Position numbers and translations under genes: made by a program. A model generated the notes under the pieces. The model had not been told where the DNA came from. It was given only the letters and a program-made list of their open reading frames with translations, and did not search any database. Positions 14,050-56,193 of a DNA stretch of 64,000 nt are shown here, in pieces; position 1 is the first letter of the stretch; each line of letters opens with the position of its first letter. Origin of the DNA: Micromonospora olivasterospora. Its GTDB lineage: Bacteria > Actinomycetota > Actinomycetes > Mycobacteriales > Micromonosporaceae. The stretch is taken from positions 5,146,001 to 5,210,000 of the forward strand of contig NZ_VLKE01000001.1 of assembly GCF_007830265.1 (NCBI RefSeq), written 5' to 3'.

Positions 14050-17000
14050 ATGGGTGAGGCTCCCGTTCCTTCCGTTGGTCTCAGTGAGTCGTCGAAGCGG
14101 GCCCTGGAGGCGTTCACCGGGATGCGGTTGCACCGGGCGGATCTGCCGGTGTTGGCGTATGACCTGAACGCGTTGGAGGTGTTGGCGGATCGGGTGCGGA
14201 CCTTGTTGGTTCCGGAGCTGGTCCAGGCGATCAGGGCGGTTCGGGCGGCGGGGGAGGGTGAGGTCTATGACCGGTTCGTGGCGCAGACGGCTCCGTTCGT
14301 GGAATTGCTGGACCGGGTTGCCGATCTGGAGGTGAACCTGGCGCAGGCGATGCGGGGCTTCCTGAACCAGATGGAGCTGACGGATCGTCAGGCGCTGGTC
14401 ATGTTCGTGTTCATGATGACGGAGTTGGCGGTCGCGTTCGCGATGGCGTTCTTCCTGCCGGTGGAGGCGGCGGCGCACATCGTGAAGGTGCGGACGATCA
14501 TTCAGACGATCCTGCGGTCGTCGATGGTGCGGGCGGCGGCGAGTAGCACGGCGATTCAGATGTTGTTCGTGCCGGGGTCGTCGTTGTTGGCGCAGATCAG
14601 CATGTTGGCTGATGGTCTGATGTCGGGGGTCGACTGGGGGCAGGTTGGTAAGCAGGCGTTGTACGGGTTGGCGGTGGCGGGTGTCAGCACGGCGGCCGGG
14701 CCGGCGTTGGCGCGGTTCGCCGGTGCGGTGGGTGGTGGTTTGTCGCATCTCGGGGTGTCGGGTTCCACGCGGGATCTGTTGACCAGCCTGTCGATGGTGC
14801 CGGTGTCGGAGGTCGGCGTGGAGGTGGTCGGCGGTATCGCCGCCAGCTACCTCGTTGACGGGCATTACGACACGGGCAGTCTCGGGCCGGATGCGCTTTC
14901 TGGGGCGTTGTCGGGGTCGGGTGAGTTGGCCGCGACCGGGGCCGGGATGGGTGCGCGTCGTGGCGCGGTGGGTCTGGGGTTCAACCCGACCCGGCCCCGG
15001 TGGCGGATGCCGGATGGTGTCGGTTTCACCGCCGACGGTAGGCCGGTCGCGCCGCTGCCGCCGCCCCCGCCGGTCACTGCGGACCCGTCGGCGTATCTGC
15101 CGGAGGTCGGCGATCCGGCGGGCTCCGGCGGGCAGGCCCTGGTGCCTGTCCCGCCGCTGCCGGCACCGGCGCTGCCGGCGCCGGCGCCGGCGTCGGGGGT
15201 GTCTGAACCGGTGCCGCCGGTACCGGTGTGGTCGGCGCCGGCCCTGTCCGTGCCGTCGTGGTCGATGCCGGAGCTGCCGGTGCCGTCGTGGTCCGTGCCG
15301 AACTTCTCGGTGCCGGCGGTGCCGGCGGTGCCGGCGGTGCCGGCGGTGCCGGTGGTGCCGGTGGTGCCGGTGCCGGAGTGGGTGGCGGTCGCTGGTGCGC
15401 TGGTGGTGGAGCAGTGGCAGCGGTTCCAGCGGGAACTGGTGGACCACTATGGTGGGTTGCTTGCCGGGACGGGGCAGGCGCGGCGGTTCCTGGCCGCGCT
15501 TGCCGTGCCGGTGGAGCAGGTCTTCACCGAGTGGGTCGACGCCCGGCAGAACGACCCGACCGTCCCGGTTTTCCTGTCCCGGATCGGCCTGCCGGCCGCC
15601 GCGCTCACCGAGCGGTACCTGTTCGGTGTCCGGGACCAGGCCGTGGCCCGGATCACCGAGACTCTCGCGCGGTCGGTCACCACCGGCGGGCAGATCCCGG
15701 CGGCGGTACGGCCGGAGCAGGTGATCGCCGCGCTGCCGGCGGAGTTCGACCGGCAGGCGTTGCGTTCGGCCGCGCACCTGGCCGCCCAACACCACATCGA
15801 CCAGTACCTCACCACCGGCCTACCCACAGACACAGGCATCCCGACGGACACACACACCCGGGCAGATACACACCCGCCGGCAGGCGCGGGCACGCCGGCG
15901 GGTGTGGGTGTGTCGGGGGTGTGGTCGGCTGGCGTGTTCGGGGCGGTCGAGGGCGGTGTGTGGAGTCAGGTGGAGCGGGGGGTCGATGCGGTCCTTGGTG
16001 TCTCTGCCGTGCTGCCGGCTGTGGTGGCTGGTCCGGACGCTGGGCAGGTCAGTGCGGTGGCGAGGGTGGTCCGGCAGGTGGTTGCCGATCTGCCCGCTCG
16101 TTTCTCGGCGGCGGCTGTTCCTGGTGTCACCGCAGTGGCTGCTGGTGTGGTTACCGTCGATGGTGGAGCAGGCGGGGGTGTCGGCGGGTCGATGGTGCCG
16201 GTGATGTCCGAGCGGCACACCTCGGTGGCGGCCGGTCTGGCGCAGGCTCAGTTCACCGTGTTGGCCCGCCGTTACGGTGTCGACCCGGCCGGTCATGCGG
16301 CGCTGGTCGCCTCGTTTCAGCGGGAGTGGCTGCACGGGTATCACCAGGTGCTCGCGTCGGCCGGTGGCAGCGCGATGTCCGGGACGGTGGATGTGGTCGG
16401 GGCCCGCGGTCCGCTGCCGGGCGGCGCCGGTTCCCGTGTCGGTGGCATGTCGATCGTCGGCGTCGTCAGCGCCGGTGACCCGACGCCGGTCAGTGACGTG
16501 TCTGCCGCGAGCGGTGCGGTGTTCAGCCCCGATCCCGGCTCCAGGAACACGGATTCCAGCGGTTTCAGGGACACGGGTTCGATCAGTGGGGTGTCGGTGC
16601 TGGACGAACCGGTCGGTGCCGGCTCTGGGGGTCTCGGCGAGCCGGCCGTCGCGGCCACCGGGCCGGCCGCGCACCGAATTCATGATCTCGCCAGCGGCGG
16701 CCACGGCCGTGCCAGCGAGGTTCAGCTGCACCGGCTCGCCGCGGACATCGGTATCCAGACGGCGTCGCCGGACGGGGTCCTGCCCCGACTGTTCGAGGTG
16801 TCCAGGGACATCGTCATGGCGGACACGTTCAGCGGCGTGTACTTCGCAGACCCGGCGGCGGCGGATCCGGACGCGGCGGCGGCGGACCGCACGGCGGCGC
16901 GGGCGCTGCCGCGGGTGCGGGGATGGTTCACCATCGCCGGGCACCGGAACCTGGCCGAGCGGCTGGCCGACGATCCCGTGCGTCAGGCCTTGTTCCTCCG

Positions 17001-20000
17001 GATGCTCACCGCCTCGCCCGCCTGGCGACACGCCGTCGCGCAGGCGCGGCAGCGCGGCGGCGACACACCCGACATCATGCTGGTCTGGTGCGACGCGGCA
17101 TGGCAGGCACCGGGACAGGCCACCTCCTTCGGTGAATGGCTGCGCACCCGGCTACGCGCCCGACGCCTGATGTCCTCCACACACCAGGTGGACCAGATAC
17201 CCGGCGAGCTGCGGCCACACGTCAACGAGCCGGCGCGGTCGGTGTTGTTCTCGGACGCCTCGGTGGAGTTGTTCGGGCCGGACCTGGTGGAGGCGGTACG
17301 AACCGCGGACATCGTGCAGAACGGTCAGGAACCCGGCGTGCGCTGGCCGGATCAACAAGACTTCGCCGCCGCTGGCGGCCGGCACCGGTGGGCCGGCAAC
17401 ACCTCACACGGGCAGTCCCCGGACCCAGCGGAAGGCCCCGACCCGTCCAGCCCCGCCCCGGTGTCCGCTACCCAGTGGATGTGGGACCCGACACGGAACC
17501 CAGCAGCCCAGTCGCCGCTGCCACACCCTGCCCTGGAAGCGGACCACCCACCCGGTGAGGACCTGTCCTGGCTGAACGACGGGAACACGTCACCGATACC
17601 CGGGCCGGCACCCGCCTCGCCGACGGGCACGAGCCTGCCACAACTGCCCGGGCCGTGGGACGACCCGGACGCCCCCACCACGCCGGCCTGGCCGACAGGG
17701 CGGGCAGAGTGGGCGGAACCAGCAGGGTGGGCGGAACCGGGGTGGCCGGTTCCCGGCACGGCTGCGACCGACGAGCACGGTGCGGCGATGTCCACCGACT
17801 TCGGCCAGCCCAGCATCGACGATCAGGCCGACGACGGCAGCAGGAACCTCGACGACTGGGCCGGCGACGGCGGAATCCTCGGCGACTGGGCTATCGGGCA
17901 GGGGCCGGACATGGACTGGCAACCATCCCTCACGCCACCCCCAGCGGTGACCCACACCGACGCCGGCACCATCCACACCGGCGACACCCTCCACCACCCC
18001 ACCGACGAGCCACCCGCCACACCCGCCCCACTGCATCCCGACGAACACCAACCCGCCGCCGGCAGCCGACAGGTACGCCACCCGGACGAGGCCCGGGCCC
18101 TGTTCGACCTGCACGCCGACCACATCGCCACCACCACAGCGCAGCGAGACCAGCTGCGGCAGTTGTGGCACGCCCTGATCAACCACATGGACGACAACGG
18201 AACCATCACCGCCAGCGAGTCAGACCTCGCCAAGGCGACATCCGCACCGCAGCCGACGGTGCATCGCCGGATAAGGGTATTGCGCGGCCGTGGTCTGCTG
18301 CAGCGGGTCCAGGAAGCACGCCGTGGCGGGGCGGCGCGGTACGGGGTGAGCGACCCGGGCCGGCCCCGGCAAGCACCGCTGCCCGCCCCTCCCGAGGGCA
18401 GCCGGTGGGTGCACAACCCGGACGAGGCCCGGGCCCTGTTCGACCTGCACGCCAACCACATCGCCACCACCACAGCGCAGCGGGAACCGCTGCGGCAGTT
18501 GTGGCACGCCCTGATCGACCGGATGGACGACAACGGAACCATCACCGCCACCGAGTCAGACCTCGCCACGGCGACCTCCACACTGCAGCAGACGGTGCAT
18601 CGCCGGATGGGGGTATTGCGCGACCGTGGTCTGCTGCAGCGGGTCCAAGAAGCACACCGTGGCGGGGCGGCACGGTACGGGGTGAGCGACCCGGGCCGGC
18701 CCCGGCAAGCACCGCTGCCCGCCCCTCCCGAGGGCAGCCGGCGGATGCACAACCCGGACGAGGCCCGAGCCCTGTTCGACCAACACGCCAACCACATCGC
18801 CACCACCACACCGCGGCGAGACCAGCTGCGGCAGTTGTGGCACGCCCTGATCGACCGGATGGACGACAACGGAACCATCACCGCCAGCGAGCCAGACCTC
18901 GCCACGGCGACATCCACACTGCAGCCGACGGTGCATGACCGGATGGGGGTATTGCGCGACCGTGGTCTGCTGCAGCGGGTCCAGGAAGCACACGGTCGCG
19001 GGGCGGCGCGGTACGGGGTGAGCGACCCGGGCCGGCCCCGGCAAGCACCGGTGCCCGGCACTGCCCTCGGACCGCACCGCCCACAAGGTGAAAATCTGTC
19101 CTGGCTGGACCACGGAGCTACGGCGCCGATACCCGGGCCGGCACCCGCCTCGCCGACGGGCACGGACCTGCCACAGCTGCCCGGGCCGTGGGACGACCCG
19201 GACGCCCCCACCACCTCGCCCCACGATCCGACCGACGCCTCGACGCCGGCCTGGCCGACAGGGTGGGCAGAACCGGCGGAGCCGATGGAGTGGACGGAAC
19301 CGGGATGGCTGGTTCCCGGCACGGCTGCGACCGACGAGCACGGTGCGGCGATGTCCACCGACTTCGGCCAGCCCAGCATCGACGATCAGGCCGACGACGG
19401 CGGGAACCCCGGCGACTGGGCCATCGGGCAGGGGCCGGACATGGACTGGCAACCACCCCTCACGGTGACCCGCACCGACGCCGGCACCATCCACACCGGC
19501 GACACCCCCCACCACCCCACCGACGAGCCACCCACCACACCCGCCCCACTGCACCCCGACCAACCCCAACCCACCGCCAGCAGCCGACAGGTACGCCACC
19601 CGGACGAGGCCCGGGCCCTGTTCGACCAACACGCCGACCACATCGCCACCACCACAGCGCAGCGAGACCAACTGCGGCAGTTGTGGCACGCCCTGATCAA
19701 CCACATGGACGACAACGGAACCATCACCGCCACCGAGTCAGACCTCGCCAAGGCGACATCCACACTGCAGTCGACGGTGCATCGCCGGATCGGGGTATTG
19801 CGCGGCCGTGGTCTGCTGCAGCGGGTCCAGGAAGCACACGGTCACGGGGCGGCGCGGTACGGGGTGAATGATCCCGGTCAGCTCCGGCAAGCACCGCTGC
19901 CGGCCCCTCCCGAGGGCAGCCGGTGGGTGTGCGACCCGGACGAGGCTCGGGCCCTGTTCGACCTGCACGCCGGCCACATCGCCGCCACCACAGCGCAGCG

Positions 20001-23000
20001 GGACGGGCTGCGGCAGTTGTGGCACGCCCTGATCGACCGGATGGACGACAACGGAACCATCACCGCCAGCGAGTCAGACCTCGCCAAGGCGACATCCACA
20101 CCGCCGCCGACGGTGCATGACCGGATGGGGGTATTGCGCGGCCGTGGTCTGCTGCAGCGGGTCCAGGAAGCACACGGTCACGGGGCGGCGCGGTACGGGG
20201 TGAATGATCCCGGTCAGCCCCGGCAAGCACCGCTGCCCGCCCCTCCCGAGGGCAGCCGGTGGGTGCGCGACCCGGACGAGGCTCGGGCCCTGTTCGACCA
20301 GCACGCCGACCACATCGCCACCACAGCGCAGCGGGAACCGCTGCGGCAGTTGTGGCACGCCCTGATCGACCGGATGGACGACAACGGAACCATCACCGCC
20401 AGCGAGCCAGACCTCGCCAAGGCGACAGCCACACTGCAGCCGACGGTGCATCGCTGGATGGGGGTATTGCGCGACCGTGGTCTGCTGCAGCGGGTCCAGG
20501 AAGCACACGGTCGCGTGGCGGCGCGGTACGGGGTGAGCGACCCGGGCCGGCCCCGGCAAGCACCGGTGCCCGGCCCTGCCCTCGGACCGCACCGCCCACA
20601 AGGTGAAAATCTGTCCTGGCTGGACCACGGAGCTACGGCGCCGATACCCGGGCCGGCACCCGCCTCGCCGACGGGCACGGACCTGCCACAACTGCCCGGG
20701 CCGTGGGACGACCCGGACGCCCCCACCACGCCGGCCTGGCCGACAGGGTGGGCAGAACCGGCGGAGCCGATGGGGTGGGCGGAACCGGGGTGGCTGGTTC
20801 CCGGCACGGGTGTGACCCACGAGCACGGTGCGGCGATGTCCACCGACTTCGGCCAGCCCAGCATCGACGATCAGGCCGGCGACGGCGGGAACCTCGGCGA
20901 CTGGGCTATCGGGCAGGGGCCGGACATGGACTGGCAACCATCCCTCACGCCACCCCCAGCGGTGACCCACACCGACGCCGGCACCATCCACACCGGCGAC
21001 ACCCTCCACCACCCCACCGACGAGCCACCCACCACACCCGCCCCACTGCACCCCGACCAACATCAACCCACCGCCGGCAGCCGACAGGTACGCCACCCGG
21101 ACGAGGCCCGGGCCCTGTTCGACCAACACGCCAACCACATCGCCGCCACCACAGCGCAGCGGGAACCGCTGCGGCAGTTGTGGCACGCCCTGATCAACCA
21201 CATGGACGACAACGGAACCATCACCGCCAGCGAGTCAGACCTCGCCAAGGCGACATCCGCAAAGCAGTCGACGGTGCAGCGCCGGATGGGGGTATTGCGC
21301 GGCCGTGGTCTGCTGCAGCGGGTCCAGGAAGCACGCGGTCGCGGGGCGGCGCGGTACGGGGTGAATGATCCCGGTCGGCCCCGGCAAGCACCGCTGCCCG
21401 CCCCTCCCGAGGGCAGCCGGTGGGTGTGCGACCCGGACGAGGCTCGGGCCCTGTTCGACCTGCACGCCGACCACATCGCCACCACCACGGCGCAGCGGGA
21501 ACCGCTGCGGCAGTTGTGGCACGCCCTGATCGACCGGATGGACGACAACGGAACCATCACCGCCAGCGAGTCAGACCTCGCCAAGGCGACAGCCACACCG
21601 CCGAGGACGGTGCGTTTCCGGATCGGGGTATTGCGCGGCCGTGGTCTGCTGCAGCGGGTCCAGGAAGCACACGGTCACGGGGCGGCACGGTACGGGGTGA
21701 GCGACCCGGGTCGGCCCCGGCAAGCACCGCTGCCCGCCCCTCCCGAGGGCAGCCGGTGGGTGTGCGACCCGGACGAGGCTCGGGCCCTGTTCGACCTGCA
21801 CGCCAACCACATCGCCACCACCACACCGCGGCGAGACCAACTGCGGCAGTTGTGGCACGCCCTGATCGACCGGATGGACGACAACGGAACCATCACCGCC
21901 ACCGAGTCAGACCTCGCCAAGGCGACAGCCACACCGCCGAGGACGGTGCGTGACCGGATGGGGGTATTGCGCGATCGTGGTCTGCTGCAGCGGGTCCAGG
22001 AAGCACACGGTCGTGTGGCGGCGCGGTACGGGGTGAGCGACCCGGGCCGGCCCCGGCAAGCACCGGTGCCCGGCCCTGCCCTCGGACCGCACCGCCCACA
22101 AGGTGAAAATCTGTCCTGGCTGGACCACGGAGCTACGGCGCCGATACCCGGGCCGGCACCCGCCTCGCCGACGGGCACGGACCTGCCACAGCTGCCCGGG
22201 CCGTGGGACGACCCGGACGCCCCCACCACGCCGGCCCGGCCGACGGAGTGGGCAGAACCGGCGGAGCCGATGGAGTGGACGGAACCGGGATGGCCGGTTC
22301 CCGGCACGGGTGTGACCCACGAGATGGACCCAGCCGTTTTACTCGATGTGGACCCGGCCGATCTGCTCTACCTGCTTGAGGCCGTGGGCACGGAACCCGA
22401 TCCCGAACGGCAACCGATGCATCCGCCCCGGCCGCAGACCCCGCCCCGCCCGACATCGTGGCCGCAGCCCAGCGGCGACCAGCCCAGCCAGTCCCCCGGG
22501 ACTCAGTCGATCCCGCCCGGACCAGGCATGCAGAATCCGGCACCTCAATCGCCGACGCCCGAGCCGGTTCCCGGCATGGATGTGACCCACGAGCACGGTG
22601 CGGCGATCTCCACCGACTTCGGCCAGCCCAGCATCGACGATCAGGCCGACGACGGCAGCAGGAACTTCGACGACTGGGCCGACGACGGCGGGAACTTCGA
22701 CGACTGGGCCGGCGACGGCGGGAACCTCGGCGACTGGGCCATCGGGCAGGGGCCGGACATGGACTGGCAACCATCCCTCACGCCACCCCCAGCGGTGACC
22801 CGCACCGACACCCCCCACCACCCCACCGACGAGCCACCCACCACACCCGCCCCACTGCACCCCCACCAACCCCAACCCACCGCCGGCAGCCGACAGGTAC
22901 GCCACCCGGACGAGGCCCGGGCCCTGTTCGACCTGCACGCCGACCACATCGCCACCACCACAGCGCCGCGAGACCAACTGCGGCAGTTGTGGCACGCCCT

Positions 23001-26000
23001 GATCGACCGGATGGACGACAACGGAACCATCACCGCCAGCGGGTCAGACCTCGCCAAGGCGACATCCACATTGCCGCAGACGGTGCATTACCGGATCGGG
23101 GTATTGCGCGGCCGTGGTCTGCTGCAGCGGGTCCAGGAAGCACACGGTCGCGGGGGGGCGCGGTACGGGGTGAGCGACCCGGGTCGGCCCCGGCAAGCAC
23201 CGCTGCCCGCCCCTCCCGAGGGCAGCCGGTGGATGTGTGACCCGGACGAGGCTCGGGCCCTGTTCGACCTGCACGCCGACCACATCGCCACCACCACAGC
23301 GCGGCGAGACCAGCTGCGGCAGTTGTGGCACGCCCTGATCGACCGGATGGACGACAACGGAACCATCACCGCCAGCGAGTCAGACCTCGCCAAGGCGACA
23401 TCCACATTGCCGCAGACGGTGCATTACCGGATCGGGGTATTGCGCGGCCGTGGTCTGCTGCAGCGGGTCCAGGAAGCACACGGTCGCGGGGGGGCGCGGT
23501 ACGGGGTGAGCGACCCGGGCCGGCCCCGGCAAGCACCGGTGCCCGGCCCTGCCCTCGGACCGCACCGCCCACAAGGTGAAAATCTGTCCTGGCTGGACCA
23601 CGGAGCTACGGCGCCGATACCCGGGCCGGCACCCGCCTCGCCGACGGACACGGACCTGCCACAGCTGTCCGGGCCGTGGGACGACCCGGACGCCCCCACC
23701 ACGCCGGCCTGGCCGACAGGGCGGGCAGAGTGGGCGGAACCAGCAGGGTGGGCGGAACCGGGGTGGCCGGTTCCCGGCACGGCTGCGACCGACGAGCACG
23801 GTGCGGCGATGTCCACCGACTTCGGCCAGCCCAGCATCGACGATCAGGCCGACTACGGCAGCAGGAACTTCGACGACTGGGCCGGCGACGGCGGAGTCCT
23901 CGGCGACTGGGCCATCGGGCAGGGGCCGGACATGGACTGGCAACCATCCCTCACGCCACCCCCAGCGGTGACCCACACCGACACCCCCCACCACCCCACC
24001 GACGAGCCACCCACCACACCCGCCCCACTGCATCCCGACCAACCCCAACCCGCCGCCGGCAGCCGACAGGTACGCCACCCGGACGAGGCCCGGGCCTTGT
24101 TCGACCTGCACGCCGACCACATCGCCACCACCACAGCGCAGCGAGGCCAGCTGCGGCAGTTGTGGCACGCCCTGATCGACCGGATGGACGACAACGGAAC
24201 CATCACCGCCAGCCTGTCAGACCTCGCCGAGGCGACATCCACACCGCGGCCGACGGTGCAGGCCCGGATCAGGGTATTGCGCGACCGTGGTCTGCTGCAG
24301 CTGGTCCAGGAAGCACACGGTCACGGGGCGGCGCGGTACGGGGTGAGCGACCCGGGCCGGCCCCGGCAAGCACCGCTGCCCGCCCCTCCCGAGGGCAGCC
24401 AGTGGCTGCGCGACCCGGACGAGGCCCGGGCCCTGTTCGACCAGCACGCCGGCCACATCGCCACCACAACACGGCAGCGGGAACCGCTGCGGCAGTTGTG
24501 GCACGCCCTGATCGACCGGATGGACGACAACGGAACCATCACCGCCACCGAGTCAGACCTCGCCAAGGCGACAGCCGCACCGCCGCAGACGGTGCATGAC
24601 CGGATGGGGGTATTGCGCGACCGTGGTCTGCTGCAGCGGGTCCAGGAAGCACACGGTCGTGTGGCGGCGCGGTACGGGGTGAGCGACCCGGGCCGGCCCC
24701 GGCAAGCACCGGTGCCCGGCCCTGCCCTCGGACCGCACCGCCCACAAGGTGGTGAAGACCTGTCCTGGCTGGACCACGGAGCTACGGCGCCGATACCCGG
24801 GCCGGCACCCGCCTCGCCGACGGGCACGGACCTGCCACAGCTGCCCGGGCCGTGGGACGACCCGGACGCCCCCACCACGCCGGCCCGGCCGACGGAGTGG
24901 GCAGAACCGGCGGAGCCGATGGAGTGGACGGAACCGGGATGGCCGGTTCCCGGCACGGGTGTGACCCACGAGATGGACCCAGCCGTTTTACTCGATGTGG
25001 ACCCGGCCGATCTGCTCTACCTGCTTGAGGCCGTGGGCACGGAACCCGATCCCGAACGGCAACCGATGCATCCGCCCCGGCCGCAGACCCCGCCCCGCCC
25101 GACATCGTGGCCGCAGCCCAGCGGCGACCAGCCCAGCCAGTCCCCCGGGACTCAGTCGATCCCGCCCGGACCAGGCATGCAGAATCCGGCACCTCAATCG
25201 CCGACGCCCGAGCCGGTTCCCGGCATGGATGTGACCCACGAGCACGGTGCGGCGATGTCCACCGACTTCGGCCAGCCCAGCATCGACGATCAGGCCGACT
25301 ACGGCAGCAGGAACCTCGACGACTGGGCCGGCGACGGCGGAATCCTCGGCGACTGGGCCATCGGGCAGGGGCCGGACATGGACTGGCAACCATCCCTCAC
25401 GCCACCCCCAGCGGTGACCCACACCGACGCCGGCACCATCCACACCGGCGATACCCCCCACCACCCCACCGACGAGCCACCCACCACACCCGCCCCACTG
25501 CACCCCGACCAACCCCAACCCACCGCCAGCAGCCGACAGGTACGCCACCCGGACGAGGCCCGGGCCCTGTTCGACCAACACGCCGACCACATCGCCACCA
25601 CCACAGCGCAGCGAGGCCAGCTGCGGCAGTTGTGGCACGCCCTGATCGACCGGATGGACGACAACGGAACCATCACCGCCAGCCTGTCAGACCTCGCCGA
25701 GGCGACATCCACACCGCGGCCGACGGTGCAGGCCCGGATCAGGGTATTGCGCGACCGTGGTCTGCTGCAGCTGGTCCAGGAAGCACACGGTCACGGGGCG
25801 GCGCGGTACGGGGTGAGCGACCCGGGCCGGCCCCGGCAAGCACCGCTGCCCGCCCCTCCCGAGGGCAGCCAGTGGCTGCGCGACCCGGACGAGGCCCGGG
25901 CCCTGTTCGACCAGCACGCCGGCCACATCGCCACCACAACACGGCAGCGGGAACCGCTGCGGCAGTTGTGGCACGCCCTGATCGACCGGATGGACGACAA

Positions 26001-30378: not shown

Positions 30379-30500
30379 CGGCGCCAGGTCCATGGTGGAT
30401 CATGTCGGGGTGCAGGTGATCTCAGCGGCTCTCTCAAGCGCCGTGGTGACCACTCGGCCGCTGACGGAACTGCTGTACTCGCTGGTGTGCGCAAGCAGGA

Positions 30501-44300: not shown

Positions 44301-45622
44301 ACCGGATCACCGCCAGGATGCCCCGTCCTTCAGGGCGGGGAGGAATGGCGGACGCGCCGTCAACCATGACTGTCCTTTCTGGTTGGATGGGTTCTGTGCG
44401 GACGGCGTACAGGTGTCGGGCGTATCCGACCCCGGAACAGGTGGTGGTGCTGAGCCGCACGTTCGGTTGCGTCCGGGTGGTGTGGAACCGCACTCTCGCC
44501 GCCCGTCGTGCTCGTTACCGCGCTGAGGGCAGGTCGACCTCGTACGCGGAGACGGATCGGGCGCTGACCGAGATGAAAAAGCAGCCCGACCTGGCGTTTC
44601 TGGGTGAGGTGTCGTCGGTGCCGTTGCAGCAGACGCTGCGGCACCAGCACACCGCCATGACCGCCTTCTTTCAGAAGCGGGCCCGGTATCCGCGCTACAA
44701 GTCCCGGCACGGCCGCCAGTCCGCGAGCTTCACCCGGTCGGCGTTGCGGATGCGTGGCGGGAACCTGACGTTGGGGAAGACACCGGGTGTGCTGCGGTTC
44801 GTGTGGTCGTGGCCCGGCGTGGACGTGGCCGGGTTGGATCCGACGACGGTGACGGTGTCCCGTGACCCGGACGGCCGTTGGTTCGTGACGTTCGCCGTCG
44901 ACGTCGAGGCACCCGTCGCACCCGAAGCCACCGGTCAGGTGGTGGGTGTGGACCTCGGGTTGACCGACTTCGCGGTGCTGTCCACCGGCGAGCGCATCCC
45001 GCATCCGAAGCACATGGAGCGTCGGGAGCGCCGACTCAAGCGGTACCAGCGGATGATGGCCCGCCGGCAGAAGGGCTCCGCCAACCGCGCCAAAGCCAAG
45101 CGGAAGGTCGCCCGTGCGTATTCGCGGGTACGCGACGCCCGCCGGGACTTCCTCCACCAACAGTCCACCACCCTGGTACGCCGGTTCGACGCCATCGCTG
45201 TGGAGGACCTGGCCGTGGCGAACATGGTCCGCAACCGGTCCCTGGCCAGATCGATCTCCCGTACCGGCTGGGCGGAGTTCCGTACCCTGCTCACCTACAA
45301 GGCCCATCGCGACGGCCGCACCCTCGCCGTGGTGGACCGCTGGTACCCGTCGTCGAAGACCTGCTCGGCGTGCGGGCATCTGCTCGCCACACTCTCCCTC
45401 GGCACGCGCCACTGGCGGTGTCCGGGTTGCGGCACCCGGCATGACCGGGACGTCAACGCCGCTCAGAACATCGCCGTCGCGGCCGGGCTGGTCGAGACGA
45501 AAAACGCCTGCGGAGTGGACGTCAGACACGAAGGATCTCCTTCCGTGCGGTCTGCGGTGAACCAGGAACCCCAACCTGCGAGGGTGGGAATCCCCCGCGT
45601 TTAGGCGGGGGAGGATGTCAAC
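44301..45622 (+). mobile_element. IS200/IS605-superfamily (IS1341-like) element carrying only tnpB
   Basis: The element is bounded by the two halves of the FMN-binding gene. A hairpin near the left end (CCCCGTCC TTCA GGGCGGGG, 44321-44340) and one near the right end (stem CCCCCGC/GCGGGGG, 45592-45611) are the subterminal structures of this superfamily. No target duplication is seen, as expected for this type. There is no tnpA. Confidence 0.9.
44387..45604 (+). CDS. tnpB: TnpB, RNA-guided DNA endonuclease
   Basis: About 405 aa. The start is uncertain (ATG 44366 or 44387; the conserved part begins VRTAYRCRAYPTPEQ). RuvC catalytic residues are intact: D189 in VGVDLGLTDFAV, E273 in IAVEDLAVANM and D355 in RHDRDVNAAQNIAV. 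The zinc finger (CSACGHLL, CPGCGTRH) lies between the last two. The C-terminal coding end overlaps the presumed omegaRNA. TnpB proteins cut DNA guided by the RNA made from the element's right end, which helps retain the element after excision. Confidence 0.93.
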   Translation: MGSVRTAYRCRAYPTPEQVVVLSRTFGCVRVVWNRTLAARRARYRAEGRSTSYAETDRALTEMKKQPDLAFLGEVSSVPLQQTLRHQHTAMTAFFQKRARYPRYKSRHGRQSASFTRSALRMRGGNLTLGKTPGVLRFVWSWPGVDVAGLDPTTVTVSRDPDGRWFVTFAVDVEAPVAPEATGQVVGVDLGLTDFAVLSTGERIPHPKHMERRERRLKRYQRMMARRQKGSANRAKAKRKVARAYSRVRDARRDFLHQQSTTLVRRFDAIAVEDLAVANMVRNRSLARSISRTGWAEFRTLLTYKAHRDGRTLAVVDRWYPSSKTCSACGHLLATLSLGTRHWRCPGCGTRHDRDVNAAQNIAVAAGLVETKNACGVDVRHEGSPSVRSAVNQEPQPARVGIPRV

Positions 45623-48093: not shown

Positions 48094-48845
48094 GGTCTGT
48101 TGCACTGTGCTGGTCGAGCAGGCGGTGGACCTGGTGCCAGCGTTGCAGGGTCGTCCGCGCGCGGGCCCGTCATACAGGGGCGCGTCCAGTACGGGGGCCC
48201 AGCAGGTGCTGTGTGCCTTCACCTCGCTCAGGGCGGCTTCGCACAGGTTTGTGCCACAGGTGCCATCTGTCCGCGACCTGCACCGCGTCGGGCAGGGCGC
48301 GGCGGACGGCCTCGGCATAGGTGGCGGAGCCGTCACGGCACACGACCTGCACGCCCGGATGTTCGCGTAGCCACGTTCCGAGGGTGTGGGCGGTGCGGTC
48401 GGGCAGCACGACGGGACAGGCCCATGGCGAGTACCGCCAGCAGACGGGCTCCCGCCCGGCCCGCTAACTCCTTGACCACGGCCTTGACGTGCCGGGACAG
48501 GCGGGCCGTGCGTCGCTGGTATCGCTCCAGCACCCCGGGAACCTGTTCGCGGAGAGTGTGGCGGCAGCCGCGCGTGGGGCACACCAGACGCCGCACCCGC
48601 ACACGGACCACCACCCGACGCCCGTCGACCGGAACGTCGGCCACCGTCCGCCAGTGATAGCCGTGGACCCGTCCCGACGAGGCCCCGCACATCGGGCAGA
48701 CCGCGGTGTCCTGCGGCGTCCGGGCCCGCACCACGATCCGCTCGCCCTCGTCGGCCACGTCCGCTACGACCAGCGGAGAAAGACCCGAAAACACCGTCCG
48801 CGCAAGCTCATCGACATCCTTCACGCCAGTGTCAACGACCCCCAC
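48094..48845 (-). pseudogene. ISL3-family transposase, internally deleted and frameshifted
   Basis: The N-terminal part (48845 to about 48430) has the zinc finger (TAVCPMCGASSGRVHGYHWR, RLVCPTRGCRHTLRE) and HTH helices (RTARLSRHVKAVVKELAGRA). It then jumps, with loss of the first catalytic Asp region, to VLPDRTAHTLGTWLREHPG. VVCRDGSATYAEAVRRALPD and VADRWHLWHNLCEAAL follow in changing frames, ending at RWHQVHRLLDQHSATD near 48094. It cannot encode a working transposase. It lies directly upstream of the control block of giant gene B. Confidence 0.85.
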
Positions 48846-49047: not shown

Positions 49048-49206
49048 ACACCGAGGCCATCGGTACCGAGCTGGTTGCGGACATGAGTGGCGGTGCGCGG
49101 GGCTGCTCCGCGTGGGAACGAGATGGCCGAGGGCCGAGGCGTTGGTGCGCTGCTGGGTGATTGGCATTGAGTGCCCCTGATCGGGGTGGGGAGGGGGCGT
49201 TGCGCG

Positions 49207-52200
49207 ATGGGTGAGGCTCCCGTTCCTTCCGTTGGTCTCAGTGAGTCGTCGAAGCGGGCCCTGGAAAATTTCACCGGGATGCGGTTGCACCGGTCGAATC
49301 TGCCGGTGTTGGCGTATGACCTGAACGCGTTGGAGGTGTTGGCGGATCGGGTGCGGACCCTGTTGGTTCCGGAGCTGGTCCAGGCGATCAGGGCGGTTCG
49401 GGCGGCGGGGGAGGGTGAGGTCTACGACCGGTTCGTGGCGCAGACCGCTCCGTTCGTGGAAATGCTGGACCGGGTCGCCGATCTGAAGGTGAACCTGGCG
49501 CAGGCGATGCGGGGCTTCCTGAACCAGATGGAGCTGACGGATCGTCAGGCGCTGGTCATGTTCGTGTTCATGATGACGGAGTTGGCGGTCGCGTTCGCGA
49601 TGGCGTTCTTCCTGCCGGTGGAGGCGGCGGCGCACATCGTGAAGGTGCGGACGATCATTCAGACGATCCTGCGGTCGTCGATGGTGCGGGCGGCGGCGAG
49701 TAGCACGGCGATTCAGATGTTGTTCGTGCCGGGGTCGTCGTTGTTGGCGCAGATCAGCATGTTGGCTGATGGTCTGATGTCGGGGGTCGACTGGGGGCAG
49801 GTTGGTAAGCAGGCGTTGTACGGGTTGGCGGTGGCGGGTGTCAGCACGGCGGCCGGGCCGGCGTTGGCGCGGTTCGCCGGTGCGGTGGGTGGTGGTTTGT
49901 CGCATCTCGGGGTGTCGGGTTCCACGCGGGATCTGTTGACCAGCCTGTCGATGGTGCCGGTGTCGGAGGTCGGCGTGGAGGTGGTCGGCGGTATCGCCGC
50001 CAGCTACCTCGTTGACGGGCATTACGACACGGGCAGTCTCGGGCCGGATGCGCTTTCTGGGGCGTTGTCGGGGTCGGGTGAGTTGGCCGCGACCGGGGCC
50101 GGGATGGGTGCGCGTCGTGGCGCGGTGGGTCTGGGGTTCAACCCGACCCGGCCCCGGTGGCGGATGCCGGATGGTGTCGGTTTCACCGCCGACGGTAGGC
50201 CGGTCGCGCCGCTACCGCCGCCCCCGCCGGTCACTGCGGACCCGTCCGCGTATCTGCCGGAGGTCGGCGATCCGGCGGGTGCGGGCTCCGGCGGGCAGGC
50301 CCTGGTGCCTGTCCCGCCGGTGCCGGTACCGGCCCTGTCGGCACCGGACCTGTCCGCGCCGGCGTGGTCGGTGCCGGACCTGCCGGCGCCGTCGTGGTCC
50401 GTGCCGAGCTTCTCGGTGCCGCTGGTGCCGGTGCCGGAGTGGGTAGCGGCCGCTGGTGCGCTGGTGGTGGAGCAGTGGCAGCGGTTCCAGCGGGAACTGG
50501 TGGACCACTATGGTGGACTGCTGGCCGGGATGGGGCAGGCGCGGCAGTTCCTGGCCGCGCTTCCCGTGTCGGTTGAGCGGCTGTTCGCCGGGTGGGTCGA
50601 CGCCCGGCGGGGTGATCGGGCTGTTGCGGCTTTCCTATCCGCTGTCGCGCTTCCTGTGCCGGGCGAGCGGGTGTTCGCCGGGTGGGTCGACGCCCGGCGG
50701 GGTGATCGGGCTGTTGCGGCTTTCCTATCCGCTGCCGCGTTGACCGAGGGGTATCTGACGGGTGTCCGGCAGCGGGCGGTGGCCCGGATGGTCGAGGCGT
50801 TGGCGTTCTCCGGTGGGCGGATCCCGGCCGAGGTGCGGGCGCGGCAGGTGATCGCCGGGCTGCCGGCGGAGTTCGACCGGCAGGCGCTGCGCTCGCTCGC
50901 GCACCTGGCCGTTCAACACCACATCGACCAGTACCTCGCCGCCGGCCTACCGACAGGCCCCGGCACGCCGACAGGCGCTGGCGTGTCGGGGGGCGCTGGG
51001 GCGGTGGTGCCGTCCGCTGGCGTGCTCAGGGCGGTCGAGGGCGGCGTGTGGAGCCAGGTGGACCGAGGGGTCGATGTGATCCTCGGTGCCCCCGCCGTGC
51101 TGCCGGGTGTGGTGGCCGGTCCCGACGCCGGGCAGGTCAGTGCCGTGGCGAGCGTGGTCCGGCAGGTGGTCGTCGACCTGCCCGCCCGTTTCTCGGCCGC
51201 GGCCGTCCCCGGCGTCACCGCAGCGGCCGCCGGTGTGGCTACCGTCGATGTCGAGGAAGGCGGGCGTGTCGGCGGGCCGACGGTGCCGGTGATGTCCGAG
51301 CGGCACATCGCGGCGGCGGCTGGTCTGGCGCGGGCCCAGTTCACCGCGTTGGCCCGCCGCTACGGTGTCGATCTGGCCGGTCATGCGGCGCTGGTCGCCT
51401 CGTTCCAGCGGGAGTGGGTGGACGGGTACCACAGGGTGCTCGTGTCGGCCGGCGGGAGCGTGACGCCCGGGACGGCGGAGGTGGTCGGGGCCCTCGGTAC
51501 GGTGCCGGGTGGTGCCGGCTCCCGTGTCGGTGGCATGTCGATCGTCGACGTCGTCAGCGTCGGTGATACGGCGTCGGTCAGTGACGTGTCTGTGGCAAGC
51601 GGTGCGGTGTTCAGCCCCGATCTCGGCTCCAGGGACACGGATTCGGCCGGTTTCGGGGATACGGGTTCGATCGGTGATGTGTCGGTGTTGGACGAACCGG
51701 TCGGTGCCGGCGCTGCCGGTTTCGGCGAGCCGGCCGTCGCGGCTACCGGGTCGGCCGGGCAACGAATCCACGAGCTCGCCAGCGGTGGCTACGGCCGTGC
51801 CAGCGACGCTCAGCTGCGCCGCCTCGCCGCGGACATCGGTATCCAGGCGGCGTCGCCGGACGGGGTCCTGCCCCGACTGTTCGAGGTTTCCAGGGACATC
51901 GTCATGGCGGACACGTTCAGCGGTGTGTACTTCGCAGACCCGGCGGCGGCGGATCCGGACGCGGCGGCGGCGGATCGCACGGCGGCGCGGGCGCTGCCGT
52001 GGGTGCGGGGATGGTTCACCATCGCCGGGCACCGGAACCTGGCCGAGCGGCTGGCCGACGATCCGGTGCGTCAGGCCTTGTTCCTCCGGATGCTCACCGC
52101 CTCGCCCGCCTGGCGACACGCCGTCGCGCAGGCGCGGCAGCGCGGCGGCGACGCACCCGACATCATGCTGGTCTGGTGCGACGCGGCATGGCAGGCACCG

Positions 52201-55200
52201 GGACAGGCCACCTCCTTCGGTGAATGGCTGCGCACCCGGCTGCGCGCCCGGCGGCTGATGTCGTCCACGCACGAGGTGGACCAGATACCCGGCGAGTTGC
52301 GGCCGCACGTGGACGAGCCGGTGCGGTCGGTGTTGTTCTCGGACGCTTCGGTGGAGTTGTTCGGGCCGGATCTGGTGGAGGCGGTACGGACCGCGGACAT
52401 CGTGCAGAACGATCAGGAACCCGGCGTGCGCTGGCCGGACCAGGAGGACTTCGCCGCCGCTGGCGGCCGGCACCGGTGGGCCGGCAACACCTCACACGGG
52501 CAGTCGCCCGATCCAGCGGAAGACGGCGACCCGTCTGGTCCTGGCCCGGCGTCCGCGGCCCAGTGGATGTGGGGCCCGTCGCGGGATCCAGGGGCGGAAT
52601 TGCCGGTGCCGGGCCCTGCCCTGGAGCCGGACCGCCCGCAGGGTGAGGATCTGTCCTGGCTGGACGACTGGGATGCGCTGCCGATGCCGGGGATGGCACC
52701 TGCCCCGCCGGCAGGCACGGGTCTGCCCTGGCTGCCCTGGCTGCCCTGGCCGCTGGACGACCCGGACGCCCCCACCGCGTCGTCCTGGCCGGCGGGGTGG
52801 GCGGAACCGGGGTGGCCGGTACCCGGCATGGGCGTGACCGACGGGCACGGTGCTGCGATCTCCACCGACTTCGGCCAGCCGCGCATCGACGATCAGGCCG
52901 GCGAGGGCAGCGGGAACCTCGGCGACTGGGCCGGCGAGGGCAGCGGGATCCTCGGCGACTGGGCCGGCGAGGGCAGCGGGAACCTCGGCGACTGGGCCGG
53001 CGAGGGCGGGAACCTCGGCGACTGGGCCACCTACCAGGGGCCGGACATGGACTGGCAGCCATCCCTCGCGTCCTGGCCAGCGGTGGCCCGCACCGACGCC
53101 GGCACTGTCCACGTCGGCGACATCCTCCATCACCCGGCCGACGAGCCACCCACCACGCCCGCCGCGCCGCACCCCGACCAACCCCAACCCCAACCCGCTG
53201 CGGGCAGCCGGCGGGTGCGCGACCCGGGCGAGGCCCGGAGGCTGTTCGACCAGCACGCCGGCCACATCGCCACCACAACGCGGCAGCGGGAACCGCTGCG
53301 GCAGTTGTGGAACGCCCTGATCGACCGGATGGACGACAACGGGATCATCACCGCCGGCGAGCCAGACCTCGCCGAGGCGACATCCACACCGCAGCCGACG
53401 GTGCATCGCCGGATCGGGGTATTGCGCGACCGTGGTCTGCTGCAGCTGGTCCAGGAAGCACACGGTCGCGGGGTGGCGCGGTACGGGGTGAGCGATCCGG
53501 GTCAGCCCCGGCAAGCACCGCTGCCGGCCCCTCCCGAGGGCACCCGGTGGCTGCGCGACCCGGGCGGGGCCCGGGCGCTGTTCGACCAGCACGCCGGCCA
53601 CATCGCCACCACAACACCGCAGCGGGACCGGCTGCGGCAGTTGTGGAACGCCCTGATCGACCGGATGGACGACAACGGGATCATCACCGCCAGCGTGTCA
53701 GACCTCGTCGAGGCGACATCCACACCGCGGCCGACGGTGCAGGCCCGGATCGGGGTATTGCGCGACCGTGGTCTGCTGCAGCTGGTGCAGGAAGGTCGCG
53801 GTGGCGGGGTGGCGCGGTACGGGGTGAGCGATCCGGGTCCGCCCCGGCAAGCACCGCTGCCGGCCCCTCCCGAGGGCAGCCAGTGGCTGCGCGACCCGGG
53901 CGGGGCCCTGGCGCTGTTCGACCAGCACGCCGGCCACATCGCCACCACAACACCGCAGCCGGAACCGCTGCGGCAGTTGTGGAACGCCCTGATCGACCGG
54001 ATGGACGACAACGGGATCATCACCGCCAGCCTGTCAGACCTCGCCGAGGCGACATCCACACCGCAGCCGACGGTGCGTCACCGGATCGGGGCATTGCGCG
54101 ACCGTGGTCTGCTGCAGCTGGTCCAGGAAGCACACGGTGGCGGGGCGGCGCGGTACGGGGTGAGCGATCCGGGTCCGCCCCGGCAAGCACCACTGCCGGC
54201 CCCTCCCGAGGGCAGCCAGTGGGTGCGCGACCCGGACGGGGCCCGGGGGCTGTTCGACCAGCACGTCGGCCACATCGCCACCACAACACGGCAGCGGGAA
54301 CCGCTGCGGCAGTTGTGGCACGCCCTGATCGACCGGATGGACGACAACGGGATCATCACCGCCAGCCTGTCAGACCTCGCCGAGGCGACATCCACACCGC
54401 AGCCGACGGTGCGTCACCGGATCGGGGTATTGCGCGACCGTGGTCTGCTGCAGCTGGTCCAGGAAGCACACGGTCGTGTGGCGGCGCGGTACGGGGTGAG
54501 CGATCCGGGTCAGCCCCGGCAAGCACCACCGCCGGGCCCTGCCCTCGGACCGGACCGCCCGCAGGGTGAGGACCTGTCCTGGCTGGACCACGGGGCTACG
54601 GTGCCGATGCCCGGGCCGGTACCTGCCCCGCCGGCGGGCACGGGTCTGCCTGGGCTGCCAGGGCCGTTGGACGACCCGGACGCCCCCACCGCGTCGTCCT
54701 GGCCGGCGGGGTGGGCGGAACCGGGGTGGCCGGTACCCGGCATGGGCGTGACCGACGGGCACGGTGCTGCGATCTCCATCGACTTCGGCCAGCCGGGCAT
54801 CGACGATCAGGCCGGCGAGGGCAGCGGGAACCTCGGCGACTGGGCCGGCGAGGGCGGGAACCTCGGCGACTGGGCCACCTACGAGGTGGGCCCAGCCGGT
54901 TCGCTCGATGTGGACCCGGCCGATCTGCTCTATCTGCTTGAGGCCGTGGGCACGGAACCCGACCCCGGGCCGCAACCGATGGATCCGCCCCGGCCGCAGG
55001 CCCCGCCCGGCCCGACATCGTGGTCGCAGCCCAGCGGCGACCAGCCCAGCCAGTCCCCAGGGACTCAGTCGTTCCCGCCCGGACCGGGTATGCAGGATCC
55101 GGCACCTCAGTCGCCGATGCCCGGGCCTGCGCCTGCCCCGCCGGCGGACACGGGCCTGCCAGGGCTGCCCGGGCCGTTGGACGACCCGGACGCCCCCACC

Positions 55201-56193
55201 GCGTCGTCCTGGCCGGCGGGGTGGGCGGAACCGGGGTGGCCGGTACCCGGCATGGGCGTGACCGACGGGCACGGTGCTACGATCTCCACCGACTTCGACC
55301 AGCCGGGCATCGACGATCAAGCCAGCGACGGCGGGAACCTCGGCGACTGGGCCACCTACCAGGGGCCGGACATGGACTGGCAGCCATCCCTCGCGCCCTC
55401 TCCAGCGGTGACCCGCACCGACGCCGGCACTGTCCACGTCGGCGACATCCTCCATCACCCGGCCGACGAGCCACCCACCACGCCCGCCTCGCCGCACCCC
55501 GACCAACCCCAACCCCAACCCGCTGCGGACAGCCGGCGGGTGCGCGACCCGGGCGAGGCCCGGGCGCTGTTCGACCAGCACGCCGGCCACATCGCCACCA
55601 CAACACGGCAGCGGGAACCGCTGCGGAAATTGTGGAACGCCCTGATCGACCGGATGGACGACAACGGGATCATCACCGCCAGCGAGCCAGCCCTCGCCGC
55701 GGCGACATCCACACTGCGGCAGACGGTGCATCGCCGGATCGGGGTATTGCGCGACCGTGGTCTGCTGCAGCGGGTCCAGGAAGGTCGCGGTCGCGGGGTG
55801 GCGCGGTACGGGGTGAGCGATCCGGGTCCGCCCCGGCAAGCACCGCTGCCGGCCCCTCCCGAGGGCAGCCAGTGGCTGCGCGACCCGGGCGAGGCCCGGA
55901 GGCTGTTCGACCAGCACGCCGGCCACATCGCCACCACAACACCGCAGCGGGAACAGCTGCGGCAGTTGTGGCACGCCCTGATCGACCGGATGGACGACAA
56001 CGGGATCATCACCGCCAGCGAGTCAGACCTCGCCGCGGCGACATCCACACCGCAGCCGACGGTGCATGACCGGATCGGGGTATTGCGCGACCGTGGTCTG
56101 CTGCAGCGGGTCCAGGAAGGTCGCGGTGGCGGGGCGGCGCGGTACGGGGTGAGCGATCCGGGTCAGCCCCGGCGGAACGTGTCAAGGGATTGA
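49207..56193 (+). CDS. Giant protein B: paralogue of A with 6 winged-helix repeats (intact)
   Basis: 2,328 aa in one uninterrupted frame from ATG 49207, with the same leader end and N-terminus as A. The first ~340 residues are almost identical to A, and about 700 bp of DNA show no difference I can find. The proline-rich stretch is shorter. A 90-bp tandem duplication (FAGWVDARRGDRAVAAFLSA twice) is unique to B. The central domain again has GWFTIAGHRN and DIMLVWCDAAW. Acidic mini-repeats (GNLGDWAGEGS) precede the first block of four wHTH units; the second block of two ends the protein. B shows what an intact copy looks like. Location and function are unknown; the hydrophobic N-terminal region suggests membrane association or export. 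Confidence 0.88.
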   Translation: MGEAPVPSVGLSESSKRALENFTGMRLHRSNLPVLAYDLNALEVLADRVRTLLVPELVQAIRAVRAAGEGEVYDRFVAQTAPFVEMLDRVADLKVNLAQAMRGFLNQMELTDRQALVMFVFMMTELAVAFAMAFFLPVEAAAHIVKVRTIIQTILRSSMVRAAASSTAIQMLFVPGSSLLAQISMLADGLMSGVDWGQVGKQALYGLAVAGVSTAAGPALARFAGAVGGGLSHLGVSGSTRDLLTSLSMVPVSEVGVEVVGGIAASYLVDGHYDTGSLGPDALSGALSGSGELAATGAGMGARRGAVGLGFNPTRPRWRMPDGVGFTADGRPVAPLPPPPPVTADPSAYLPEVGDPAGAGSGGQALVPVPPVPVPALSAPDLSAPAWSVPDLPAPSWSVPSFSVPLVPVPEWVAAAGALVVEQWQRFQRELVDHYGGLLAGMGQARQFLAALPVSVERLFAGWVDARRGDRAVAAFLSAVALPVPGERVFAGWVDARRGDRAVAAFLSAAALTEGYLTGVRQRAVARMVEALAFSGGRIPAEVRARQVIAGLPAEFDRQALRSLAHLAVQHHIDQYLAAGLPTGPGTPTGAGVSGGAGAVVPSAGVLRAVEGGVWSQVDRGVDVILGAPAVLPGVVAGPDAGQVSAVASVVRQVVVDLPARFSAAAVPGVTAAAAGVATVDVEEGGRVGGPTVPVMSERHIAAAAGLARAQFTALARRYGVDLAGHAALVASFQREWVDGYHRVLVSAGGSVTPGTAEVVGALGTVPGGAGSRVGGMSIVDVVSVGDTASVSDVSVASGAVFSPDLGSRDTDSAGFGDTGSIGDVSVLDEPVGAGAAGFGEPAVAATGSAGQRIHELASGGYGRASDAQLRRLAADIGIQAASPDGVLPRLFEVSRDIVMADTFSGVYFADPAAADPDAAAADRTAARALPWVRGWFTIAGHRNLAERLADDPVRQALFLRMLTASPAWRHAVAQARQRGGDAPDIMLVWCDAAWQAPGQATSFGEWLRTRLRARRLMSSTHEVDQIPGELRPHVDEPVRSVLFSDASVELFGPDLVEAVRTADIVQNDQEPGVRWPDQEDFAAAGGRHRWAGNTSHGQSPDPAEDGDPSGPGPASAAQWMWGPSRDPGAELPVPGPALEPDRPQGEDLSWLDDWDALPMPGMAPAPPAGTGLPWLPWLPWPLDDPDAPTASSWPAGWAEPGWPVPGMGVTDGHGAAISTDFGQPRIDDQAGEGSGNLGDWAGEGSGILGDWAGEGSGNLGDWAGEGGNLGDWATYQGPDMDWQPSLASWPAVARTDAGTVHVGDILHHPADEPPTTPAAPHPDQPQPQPAAGSRRVRDPGEARRLFDQHAGHIATTTRQREPLRQLWNALIDRMDDNGIITAGEPDLAEATSTPQPTVHRRIGVLRDRGLLQLVQEAHGRGVARYGVSDPGQPRQAPLPAPPEGTRWLRDPGGARALFDQHAGHIATTTPQRDRLRQLWNALIDRMDDNGIITASVSDLVEATSTPRPTVQARIGVLRDRGLLQLVQEGRGGGVARYGVSDPGPPRQAPLPAPPEGSQWLRDPGGALALFDQHAGHIATTTPQPEPLRQLWNALIDRMDDNGIITASLSDLAEATSTPQPTVRHRIGALRDRGLLQLVQEAHGGGAARYGVSDPGPPRQAPLPAPPEGSQWVRDPDGARGLFDQHVGHIATTTRQREPLRQLWHALIDRMDDNGIITASLSDLAEATSTPQPTVRHRIGVLRDRGLLQLVQEAHGRVAARYGVSDPGQPRQAPPPGPALGPDRPQGEDLSWLDHGATVPMPGPVPAPPAGTGLPGLPGPLDDPDAPTASSWPAGWAEPGWPVPGMGVTDGHGAAISIDFGQPGIDDQAGEGSGNLGDWAGEGGNLGDWATYEVGPAGSLDVDPADLLYLLEAVGTEPDPGPQPMDPPRPQAPPGPTSWSQPSGDQPSQSPGTQSFPPGPGMQDPAPQSPMPGPAPAPPADTGLPGLPGPLDDPDAPTASSWPAGWAEPGWPVPGMGVTDGHGATISTDFDQPGIDDQASDGGNLGDWATYQGPDMDWQPSLAPSPAVTRTDAGTVHVGDILHHPADEPPTTPASPHPDQPQPQPAADSRRVRDPGEARALFDQHAGHIATTTRQREPLRKLWNALIDRMDDNGIITASEPALAAATSTLRQTVHRRIGVLRDRGLLQRVQEGRGRGVARYGVSDPGPPRQAPLPAPPEGSQWLRDPGEARRLFDQHAGHIATTTPQREQLRQLWHALIDRMDDNGIITASESDLAAATSTPQPTVHDRIGVLRDRGLLQRVQEGRGGGAARYGVSDPGQPRRNVSRD
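50584..50733 (+). repeat. 90-bp in-frame tandem duplication in gene B
   Basis: The 60-bp stretch encoding FAGWVDARRGDRAVAAFLSA is identical at 50584-50643 and 50674-50733. The offset is 90 bp. Gene A has a single, diverged version (EWVDARQNDPTVPVFLSR). Confidence 0.9.
52900..53033 (+). repeat. Acidic Trp mini-repeats in gene B linker
   Basis: Four tandem copies of a 10-12-residue unit of the type AGEGSGNLGDWA occur. Shorter versions (DDWAGDGG, LGDWAIGQG) occur in every linker of gene A. The units are rich in Gly, Asp and Trp and probably disordered. Confidence 0.85.
53209..54530 (+). repeat. wHTH repeat block B1 (4 units)
   Basis: Four 336-bp units carry recognition helices TPQPTVHRRI, TPRPTVQARI, TPQPTVRHRI and TPQPTVRHRI. 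B units differ from A units at fixed places (DDNGIITA for DDNGTITA, LWNALI for LWHALI in most). Confidence 0.92.
55534..56193 (+). repeat. wHTH repeat block B2 (2 units, C-terminal)
   Basis: Two units carry recognition helices TLRQTVHRRI and TPQPTVHDRI. They end PGQPRRNVSRD like gene A. Confidence 0.92.

Follow-up and report, generated by a model that had tools for sequence, protein, structure and literature searches.

Type VII (WXG) polymorphic toxins, including giant actinobacterial ones, are the closest described relatives of the genes analysed here. According to the accessible text of Zhang et al. 2012 (PMC3482391), they combine a constant secretion-type N-terminus with variable C-termini and huge size, and carry an internal Cys peptidase-like module as well as OTU-like and papain-like parts; the term helix-turn-helix (HTH) does not occur in that text. 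A similar layout, with a putative peptidase module, is found in a protein family to which two giant genes, A and B, belong. They lie in a 64,000-nt stretch of Micromonospora olivasterospora DNA (assembly GCF_007830265.1, contig NZ_VLKE01000001.1, positions 5,146,001 to 5,210,000; “the window”). The C-terminus of A and B differs from that of the toxins in being an array of DNA-binding-type units, and no toxin family is among the Pfam families listed for B or, among the 25 matches listed, for A; the original prediction, made from the sequence alone, had likewise seen no recognisable toxin there. Moreover, no immunity gene was recognised; around A and B the window holds mostly transposase genes, and the neighbours of the relatives were compared by clustering. 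Since no C-terminal toxin domain was listed, A and B are treated as relatives of type VII toxins rather than as toxins. Our favoured, if still tentative, explanation is that they are lineage-specific giant polymorphic effectors of the type VII kind, whose C-terminus has been turned into a diversified DNA-recognition array.

To our knowledge, nature offers only a few modular arrays that read DNA; examples are TALE-like repeats and zinc fingers. The repeats of transcription activator-like (TAL) effectors, or TALEs, are 33-35-residue helical hairpins. Both they and the arrays described here consist of tandem near-identical repeats with few hypervariable specificity positions, as far as the available part of one study of TALE-like repeats describes them (PMC5472282). 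The A/B repeats would also sit on a secreted carrier, as in TAL effectors, but the likeness is one of logic and not of fold: the units here are 112-residue winged helices, the secretion route would be different, and their DNA binding is predicted from sequence. A TALE-inspired screen considered, in the same available text, only repeats of 30-43 residues and so could not have found 112-residue units (PMC5472282).

Winged-helix regulators such as CRP, MarR, ArsR and Fur have the same fold and recognition-helix layout as the unit. They are generally known to carry one winged-helix domain per chain and to act mostly as dimers, whereas up to 17 full units occur in one open frame here. The fungal WD40 receptors HET-D and HET-E show the same high internal repeat conservation, inter-locus exchange and few selected positions; they have NACHT NTPases and WD40 repeats only (PMC1805685), whereas the A/B family has a winged-helix repeat in addition, and no NACHT is among the Pfam families listed for A and B. 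Among the literature matches listed, no paper described tandem winged-helix arrays of such a family, which agrees with the earlier statement that no described family was known. The carrier is of a known kind; the winged-helix array is, as far as the searches go, undescribed.

Winged-helix units and their variable positions

The proposal that A and B end in winged-helix units was borne out by profile matches, predicted fold and structural matches. The model of a single unit (predicted local distance difference test, pLDDT, 84.1) is a winged helix, running helix, strand, helix, recognition helix and two-strand wing, and most of the PDB matches at the top of its list are regulators of the winged-helix type. 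Single units of B matched the HTH families MarR_2 (1.5e-4), HTH_IclR (4.6e-4) and HTH_24 (0.0018) in the profile check that had been suggested for one unit, each match alone scoring below the Pfam gathering score. Whole-chain scores were much higher, but these are sums over repeats, and the single-unit scores were relied on. Matches to Sigma-54, RepL, RcnB, Csa3 and SoFic were dismissed as summed weak repeat matches.

Full units number 346 in two genomes, that of M. olivasterospora and a relative, G298; this number and the purifying selection on the Cys/His module described below speak against a chance pattern. Five were dropped before alignment, leaving 341, of which 317 are unique by DNA and 316 by protein; identical copies were removed for the diversity, close-pair and CRP-based tests below. 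The scaffold hardly changes, several core columns are invariant, and the most variable of the 107 columns are 67, 63, 61, 25, 7 and 62. In the unit model the recognition helix occupies columns 62-74; the structure alignment contained 22 of the 24 full units in the window, two identical copies being left out. A comparison with CRP indicates what these columns may do. In CRP, Arg180, Glu181 and Arg185 make specific base contacts and Ser179 and Thr182 contact phosphates, according to the accessible part of a published account (PMC12531629). The RESV motif of the solved Crp-family protein 3b02 aligned to columns 62-65 (HMMER, E 0.11), which makes columns 62, 63 and 67 the equivalents of Arg180, Glu181 and Arg185; Ser179 and Thr182 have their counterparts in columns 61 and 64, respectively. 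Only 6 of 198,485 column triples were as variable as 62, 63 and 67 (p ~3e-5), and the high variability of these three was seen in each of the two genomes separately. Of the two phosphate-contact equivalents, column 64 is nearly fixed and column 61 is variable. Columns 61, 62, 63 and 67, which carry 133 distinct four-residue combinations, had first been chosen by entropy on the same data, which is why 62, 63 and 67 were then tested as a set defined by CRP.

Further evidence came from diversity among the units, expressed as the ratio of nonsynonymous to synonymous diversity (piN/piS). This ratio was 1.38 overall, 3.83 in columns 50-78, 6.39 in the four columns and 0.77 in the linker, compared with control values of 0.64-0.89 for the N-terminus, 0.87 for a second repeat type and 1.22 for WD40 repeats of sister genes. 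In this GC-rich DNA, synonymous change is low to an uneven degree, and piN at the four columns relative to linker piS is therefore the safer measure; it was 2.08 (1.90-2.33; 200 resamplings of 51 open reading frames, ORFs), whereas the other unit columns gave 0.65 (0.58-0.74). Among close pairs of units, 45 of 351 differences fell in the four columns, where 13.1 were expected. The nearest neighbour of a winged-helix unit came from the same genome in 91% of cases, compared with 51% after labels were shuffled. With near-identical units that differ strongly at the usual DNA-reading spots, placed behind a secretion-type front end, A and B look like a naturally occurring, recombining set of sequence readers.

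Several observations weigh against DNA reading. The profile match underlying the CRP register is weak, at the E-value given above. Unit charge is near neutral (14 K+R versus 11 D+E in one unit, 11 versus 10 in another), Asp is the commonest residue at column 67 (112 of 341), and Pro is frequent at columns 61 (55%) and 63 (39%). Columns 25, 7, 18 and 84, outside the helix, are also strongly variable, 306 of the 351 differences between close pairs are located elsewhere than in the four columns, and Nei-Gojobori ratios leave codon bias and recombination unmodelled. The charge, the Asp and Pro residues and the variable surface columns would all fit units that have lost DNA binding, their fold serving as a spacer or a surface for binding proteins and the variation at the helix reflecting relaxed constraint or a race with protein partners. 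The sister WD40 arrays, which presumably bind proteins, point the same way. We consider this rather doubtful: the equivalents of the CRP base contacts are singled out while the neighbouring phosphate-contact position stays fixed, residues at columns 62 and 67 are polar or hydrogen-bonding in 91% and 83% of units, and relaxed constraint alone would not yield piN above synonymous change at these sites. Together with an internal sensor repertoire, discussed below, non-DNA-binding units are the main rival to a DNA-recognition array.

A different question is how the variable positions arise. Sensors of multicellular bacteria that are diversified by diversity-generating retroelements (DGRs) are likewise diversified recognition proteins, in the available text of one report (PMC10907252), and DGR hypermutation could in principle create the variable positions here. 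The third base is mostly kept in the variable codons (NNG at columns 61-63, mostly NNC at 67), and reverse transcriptase domains are present in the genome, with eight RVT_1 matches over cut-off (G000:C1:5696869, 404209 and others) that may stem from retrons, group II introns or DGRs. We regard this origin as highly improbable, because 304 of 317 unique units retain the adenine of the adjacent ACG codon (column 64), the same logic is seen in the WD40 and second repeats, and the targets would be very many and dispersed; a template repeat was not searched for.

Two further repeat types occur in sister genes. The second repeat spans ~102-106 residues in 151 full copies (loci L037, L041, L042, L044, L062 and G298 loci), and its most variable columns are n, n+1, n+2 and n+6, before and after an SV motif. 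Its only HTH profile matches, HTH_3 (0.021, 1 of 24 members) and HTH_32 (0.025, 2 of 24 members), were rejected; no HTH was found among two weak PDB rows, and profile comparison gave no link to the winged-helix unit. Given this weak profile support, the second repeat is HTH-like by motif only. With the n, n+1, n+2, n+6 spacing that the winged-helix unit also shows, it may be an independent second alphabet. The WD40 repeats (M24 and M27; L046, L049, L050) have four strongly variable columns, 8, 10, 29 and 31, a pattern much like that of fungal HET-E. Close pairs of the second repeat had 23 of 101 differences in columns 80, 81, 82 and 86 (4.0 expected), and those of the WD40 repeat 272 of 616 in columns 8, 10, 29 and 31 (58.7 expected). 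Across the winged-helix, second and WD40 repeats, the nearest neighbour was from the same genome in 91%, 100% and 99% of cases.

The family N-terminus, the Cys/His modules and proposed type VII export

A and B were originally described as two paralogues; instead, they are members of a large recombining family, 2 of 41 loci in the genome that carry the N-terminus. Residues 1-340 of B matched 42 places, one broken locus being matched twice, and the summed ORFs of the 41 loci amount to 287 kb, or 4.05% of the genome. Members share an N-terminal half of ~850 residues, followed by one of two Cys/His modules and then by differing C-termini, so that a constant N-terminus is combined with exchanged C-termini as in polymorphic toxins. 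The survey proposed earlier for this N-terminus with other C-termini thus returned many of them. By motif, these include the WD40 arrays of M24 and M27 and the second repeat in at least M15, M19, M20, M22 and M37. An ADGYC motif, as in OTU proteases, was seen by eye in M15, M19, M20, M22, M29, M31 and M37, with no Pfam match in the two members tested. Member M34 has a Gln_amidase match, and some members are short fragments.

Beyond this genome, the N-terminus was surveyed in 300 genomes of the bacterial family. Genome surveys scored the best first-look candidates only (7 per genome for the N-terminus, 14 for the units). Matches at E <= 1e-3 were found in 20 genomes (13 weak), and strong ones (>=50% identity) in this genome and six others. 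Strong unit matches among the 300 came only from this genome and G298; weak ones occurred in 12 further genomes, of which two on the wrong strand were dropped and one (L089) is by eye what we take to be a free-standing HxlR-type regulator. G298 has 23 N-terminus matches, with frames of 19,120, 10,625 and 4,983 aa among them, and its best array comprises 17 full units within a single frame. The 19,120-aa protein is a single open frame (G298:C1:178963-236322; L123-L125) with the family N-terminus and a papain-like module, and genome G247 has a frame of this kind with 11,802 aa. In the 10,625-aa frame (G298:C2:554124-585998; L121, L122), 62 WD40-like motifs are followed by 5 winged-helix units, which indicates that repeat types mix within one chain. 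Relatives of the N-terminus, all annotated “hypothetical protein”, are present in M. pallida, M. fulviviridis and Micromonospora sp. NPDC048830. These relatives and the NPDC048830 homologue described below came from two protein searches that scored only the ~7,980 candidates sharing most words; a separate search with the unit took near-unit-length proteins only. Three further loci, from M. rubida and the strains MW-13 and MP36, were obtained with a contig scan for two peptide patterns.

The earlier proposal that the N-terminus resembles those of giant polymorphic-toxin-like proteins of actinomycetes gained support from profile homology and, in M. rubida, from type VII synteny. The domain, a divergent WXG100_2-like helical region with a hydrophobic stretch, spans 14014..15033 (+) in gene A and 49171..50190 (+) in gene B, with 98% identity between the two. 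In the suggested profile check, residues 1-340 of B had no direct match in Pfam or NCBIfam; homology came by profile comparison. Of five relatives tested, the four distant ones, which come from other Micromonospora giants and share 25-30% identity, matched PF25547 WXG100_2; one match was at 1.1e-12, the remaining three at 5e-6 to 1.3e-5. The fifth sequence is more closely related and matched only PPE, at 0.069. Profile-profile comparison of the family N-terminus with the WXG100_2-bearing relatives gave 99.1% probability over 216 columns. At the sequence level, the family N-terminus is homologous to the WXG100_2-type front ends of other Micromonospora giants.

A link to a type VII locus is provided by the M. 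rubida relative: upstream of it are EccD, EccB, two WXG100 genes and a YbaB gene, separated from it by three unassigned genes. YbaB-like neighbours, identified by eye and homology, precede four other members, the 19,120-aa one included, and three EccCa genes over cut-off are present in the M. olivasterospora genome. Export by type VII secretion is likely in view of the WXG100_2 homology, this synteny, the YbaB-like neighbours and the EccCa genes. Some of the evidence runs the other way: three of the four WXG100_2 matches are at or just under the Pfam cut-off, no member in this genome or in G298 was found beside type VII genes except for the YbaB-like neighbours upstream of the 19,120-aa member, and A and B themselves are located among transposases.

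The Cys/His module, a possible processing peptidase, lies at 16612..17412 (+) in gene A, with 93% identity to the module of gene B at 51700..52500 (+), which is one of 13 copies in the genome with 93-100% identity. Its motif is caspase-like in A and B and papain-like in other members. His and Cys are kept in 24 of 24 aligned copies, and the module is under purifying selection (piN/piS 0.33-0.40; 0.40 for the papain-like module). The module of B had no Pfam or NCBIfam match, and, as a caution on the peptidase reading, its fold model is too poor to use, the two VIA rows from it neither favouring nor excluding any family. The label “lonely Cys domain” was set aside, as a literature search gave no paper and NCBIfam no match to the module. 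Within the genus, a survey of the 16 best first-look candidates per genome found the A/B type of module in two genomes out of 160; the module also occurs in G036, of another genus. A class survey of 394 genomes outside the genus, with the 6 best candidates per genome scored, gave two matches only, which look like chance; by eye they are a Ser/Thr kinase and a noise frame. Micromonospora sp. NPDC048830 has an intact 1,964-aa homologue with the Cys/His module and four units.

The family could instead be an internal repertoire of sensors for non-self or phage, like the fungal NLR (NOD-like receptor) WD40 receptors, in which arrays see foreign DNA (winged helix) or proteins (WD40) inside the cell and thereby activate the Cys/His module together with the hydrophobic N-terminus. 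Micromonospora hosts are filamentous bacteria, which would suit such a role, and in each of three unrelated repeat types, change is concentrated at the predicted ligand face. The pattern of concerted evolution is that of het-d/het-e, where four residues per repeat are positively selected according to the accessible portion of the study (PMC1805685). We nevertheless judge an internal sensor repertoire unlikely: the Pfam families listed for A and B include no NACHT or STAND NTPase, the N-terminus shows homology to secretion-type WXG100_2 domains and one member lies beside ESX genes, and the PADLOC matches are weak repeat-summed HTH matches or C-terminal pieces of other systems.

Array layout and surroundings of genes A and B

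The arrays of A and B have the numbers of full units originally counted, 18 and 6, with a within-block spacing of 336 nt (112 aa) in both genes. The first ORF of gene A, 14014..27159 (+), encodes 4,381 aa, with an ATG at residue 13 (14050). It contains 15 full units in six blocks on the + strand: three of 3 units each (18067..19071, 19585..20586 and 21082..22086) and three of 2 units each (22891..23559, 24064..24732 and 25534..26202), the sixth block being identical in protein to the neighbouring fifth. Gene A continues in a second frame at 26499..28823 (+), with 3 full units (27825-28817) and 2 truncated ones (27033-27110 and 27429-27506). The frame change falls at ~26.96-27.03 kb, the first second-frame unit fragment starting at 27033. 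Gene B is an intact ORF at 49171..56193 (+) of 2,340 aa, or the predicted 2,328 from the ATG at residue 13, with units in blocks of 4 (53209..54549, +) and 2 (55534..56187, +).

Frame changes are not confined to gene A. At least nine array loci in this genome and two in G298 continue in another frame after a break within a repeat. Such interruptions of several arrays weigh against a functional recognition protein; they may be due to sequencing error, decay or phase variation. Transposase genes also surround A and B: an IS110-type gene upstream of A (11820-13586), on the other side of A DDE_3, rve and IS4-type genes (downstream, 29316-33043), and an ISL3 zinc-ribbon fragment upstream of B (48333-48845). 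Together with the several short-fragment members, these features would be expected if the family were a decaying, transposon-driven repeat expansion whose arrays have no present function. That seems improbable given that both the Cys/His module and the papain-like module are under purifying selection, that long intact frames in G298 hold 13-17 full units and that another Micromonospora has an intact four-unit homologue.

Outside A and B, the sole Rfam match from the scan is RF02743 Sernc389 at 44586-45177 (-; 103.8 bits), in a GC-rich region with overlapping ORFs. ARAGORN found no tRNA. A 1,248-aa open frame at 5194-8940 (-) has no Pfam match and may be a spurious GC-rich frame.

A proposed recombining recognition set

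Under the favoured explanation of a type VII-type effector with a DNA-recognition array, the N-terminus would direct export through the type VII (ESX) system, and the Cys/His module would cut the chain and release the C-terminus. Each unit would bind a short stretch of DNA according to a preference of its own, and a chain of 6-18 units would thereby read a long composite sequence. New specificities would keep arising as units duplicate, are shuffled from locus to locus and undergo selection at their contact positions. The most likely effect would be to occupy selected DNA in another cell or in an invading element, although capture of DNA at the cell surface, delivery into another cell and internal sensing are all conceivable; for the chromosome-organising role that had been suggested, nothing was found in support. 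A more specific version, which is possible but which we hold more loosely, is an exported modular DNA-recognition system in which a unit reads a few bp via columns 62, 63 and 67 (with 61), a chain spells a long target, and ~180 units across the genome form a pool from which recombination keeps making new specificities.

If this is true, a bacterial winged-helix array with its four-residue combinations would be a ready data set for a recognition code, and polymorphic effector systems could be said to evolve recognition in place of catalysis. Moreover, with three repeat types on one front end, each changing at its predicted ligand face, the origin of recognition repertoires would become testable.
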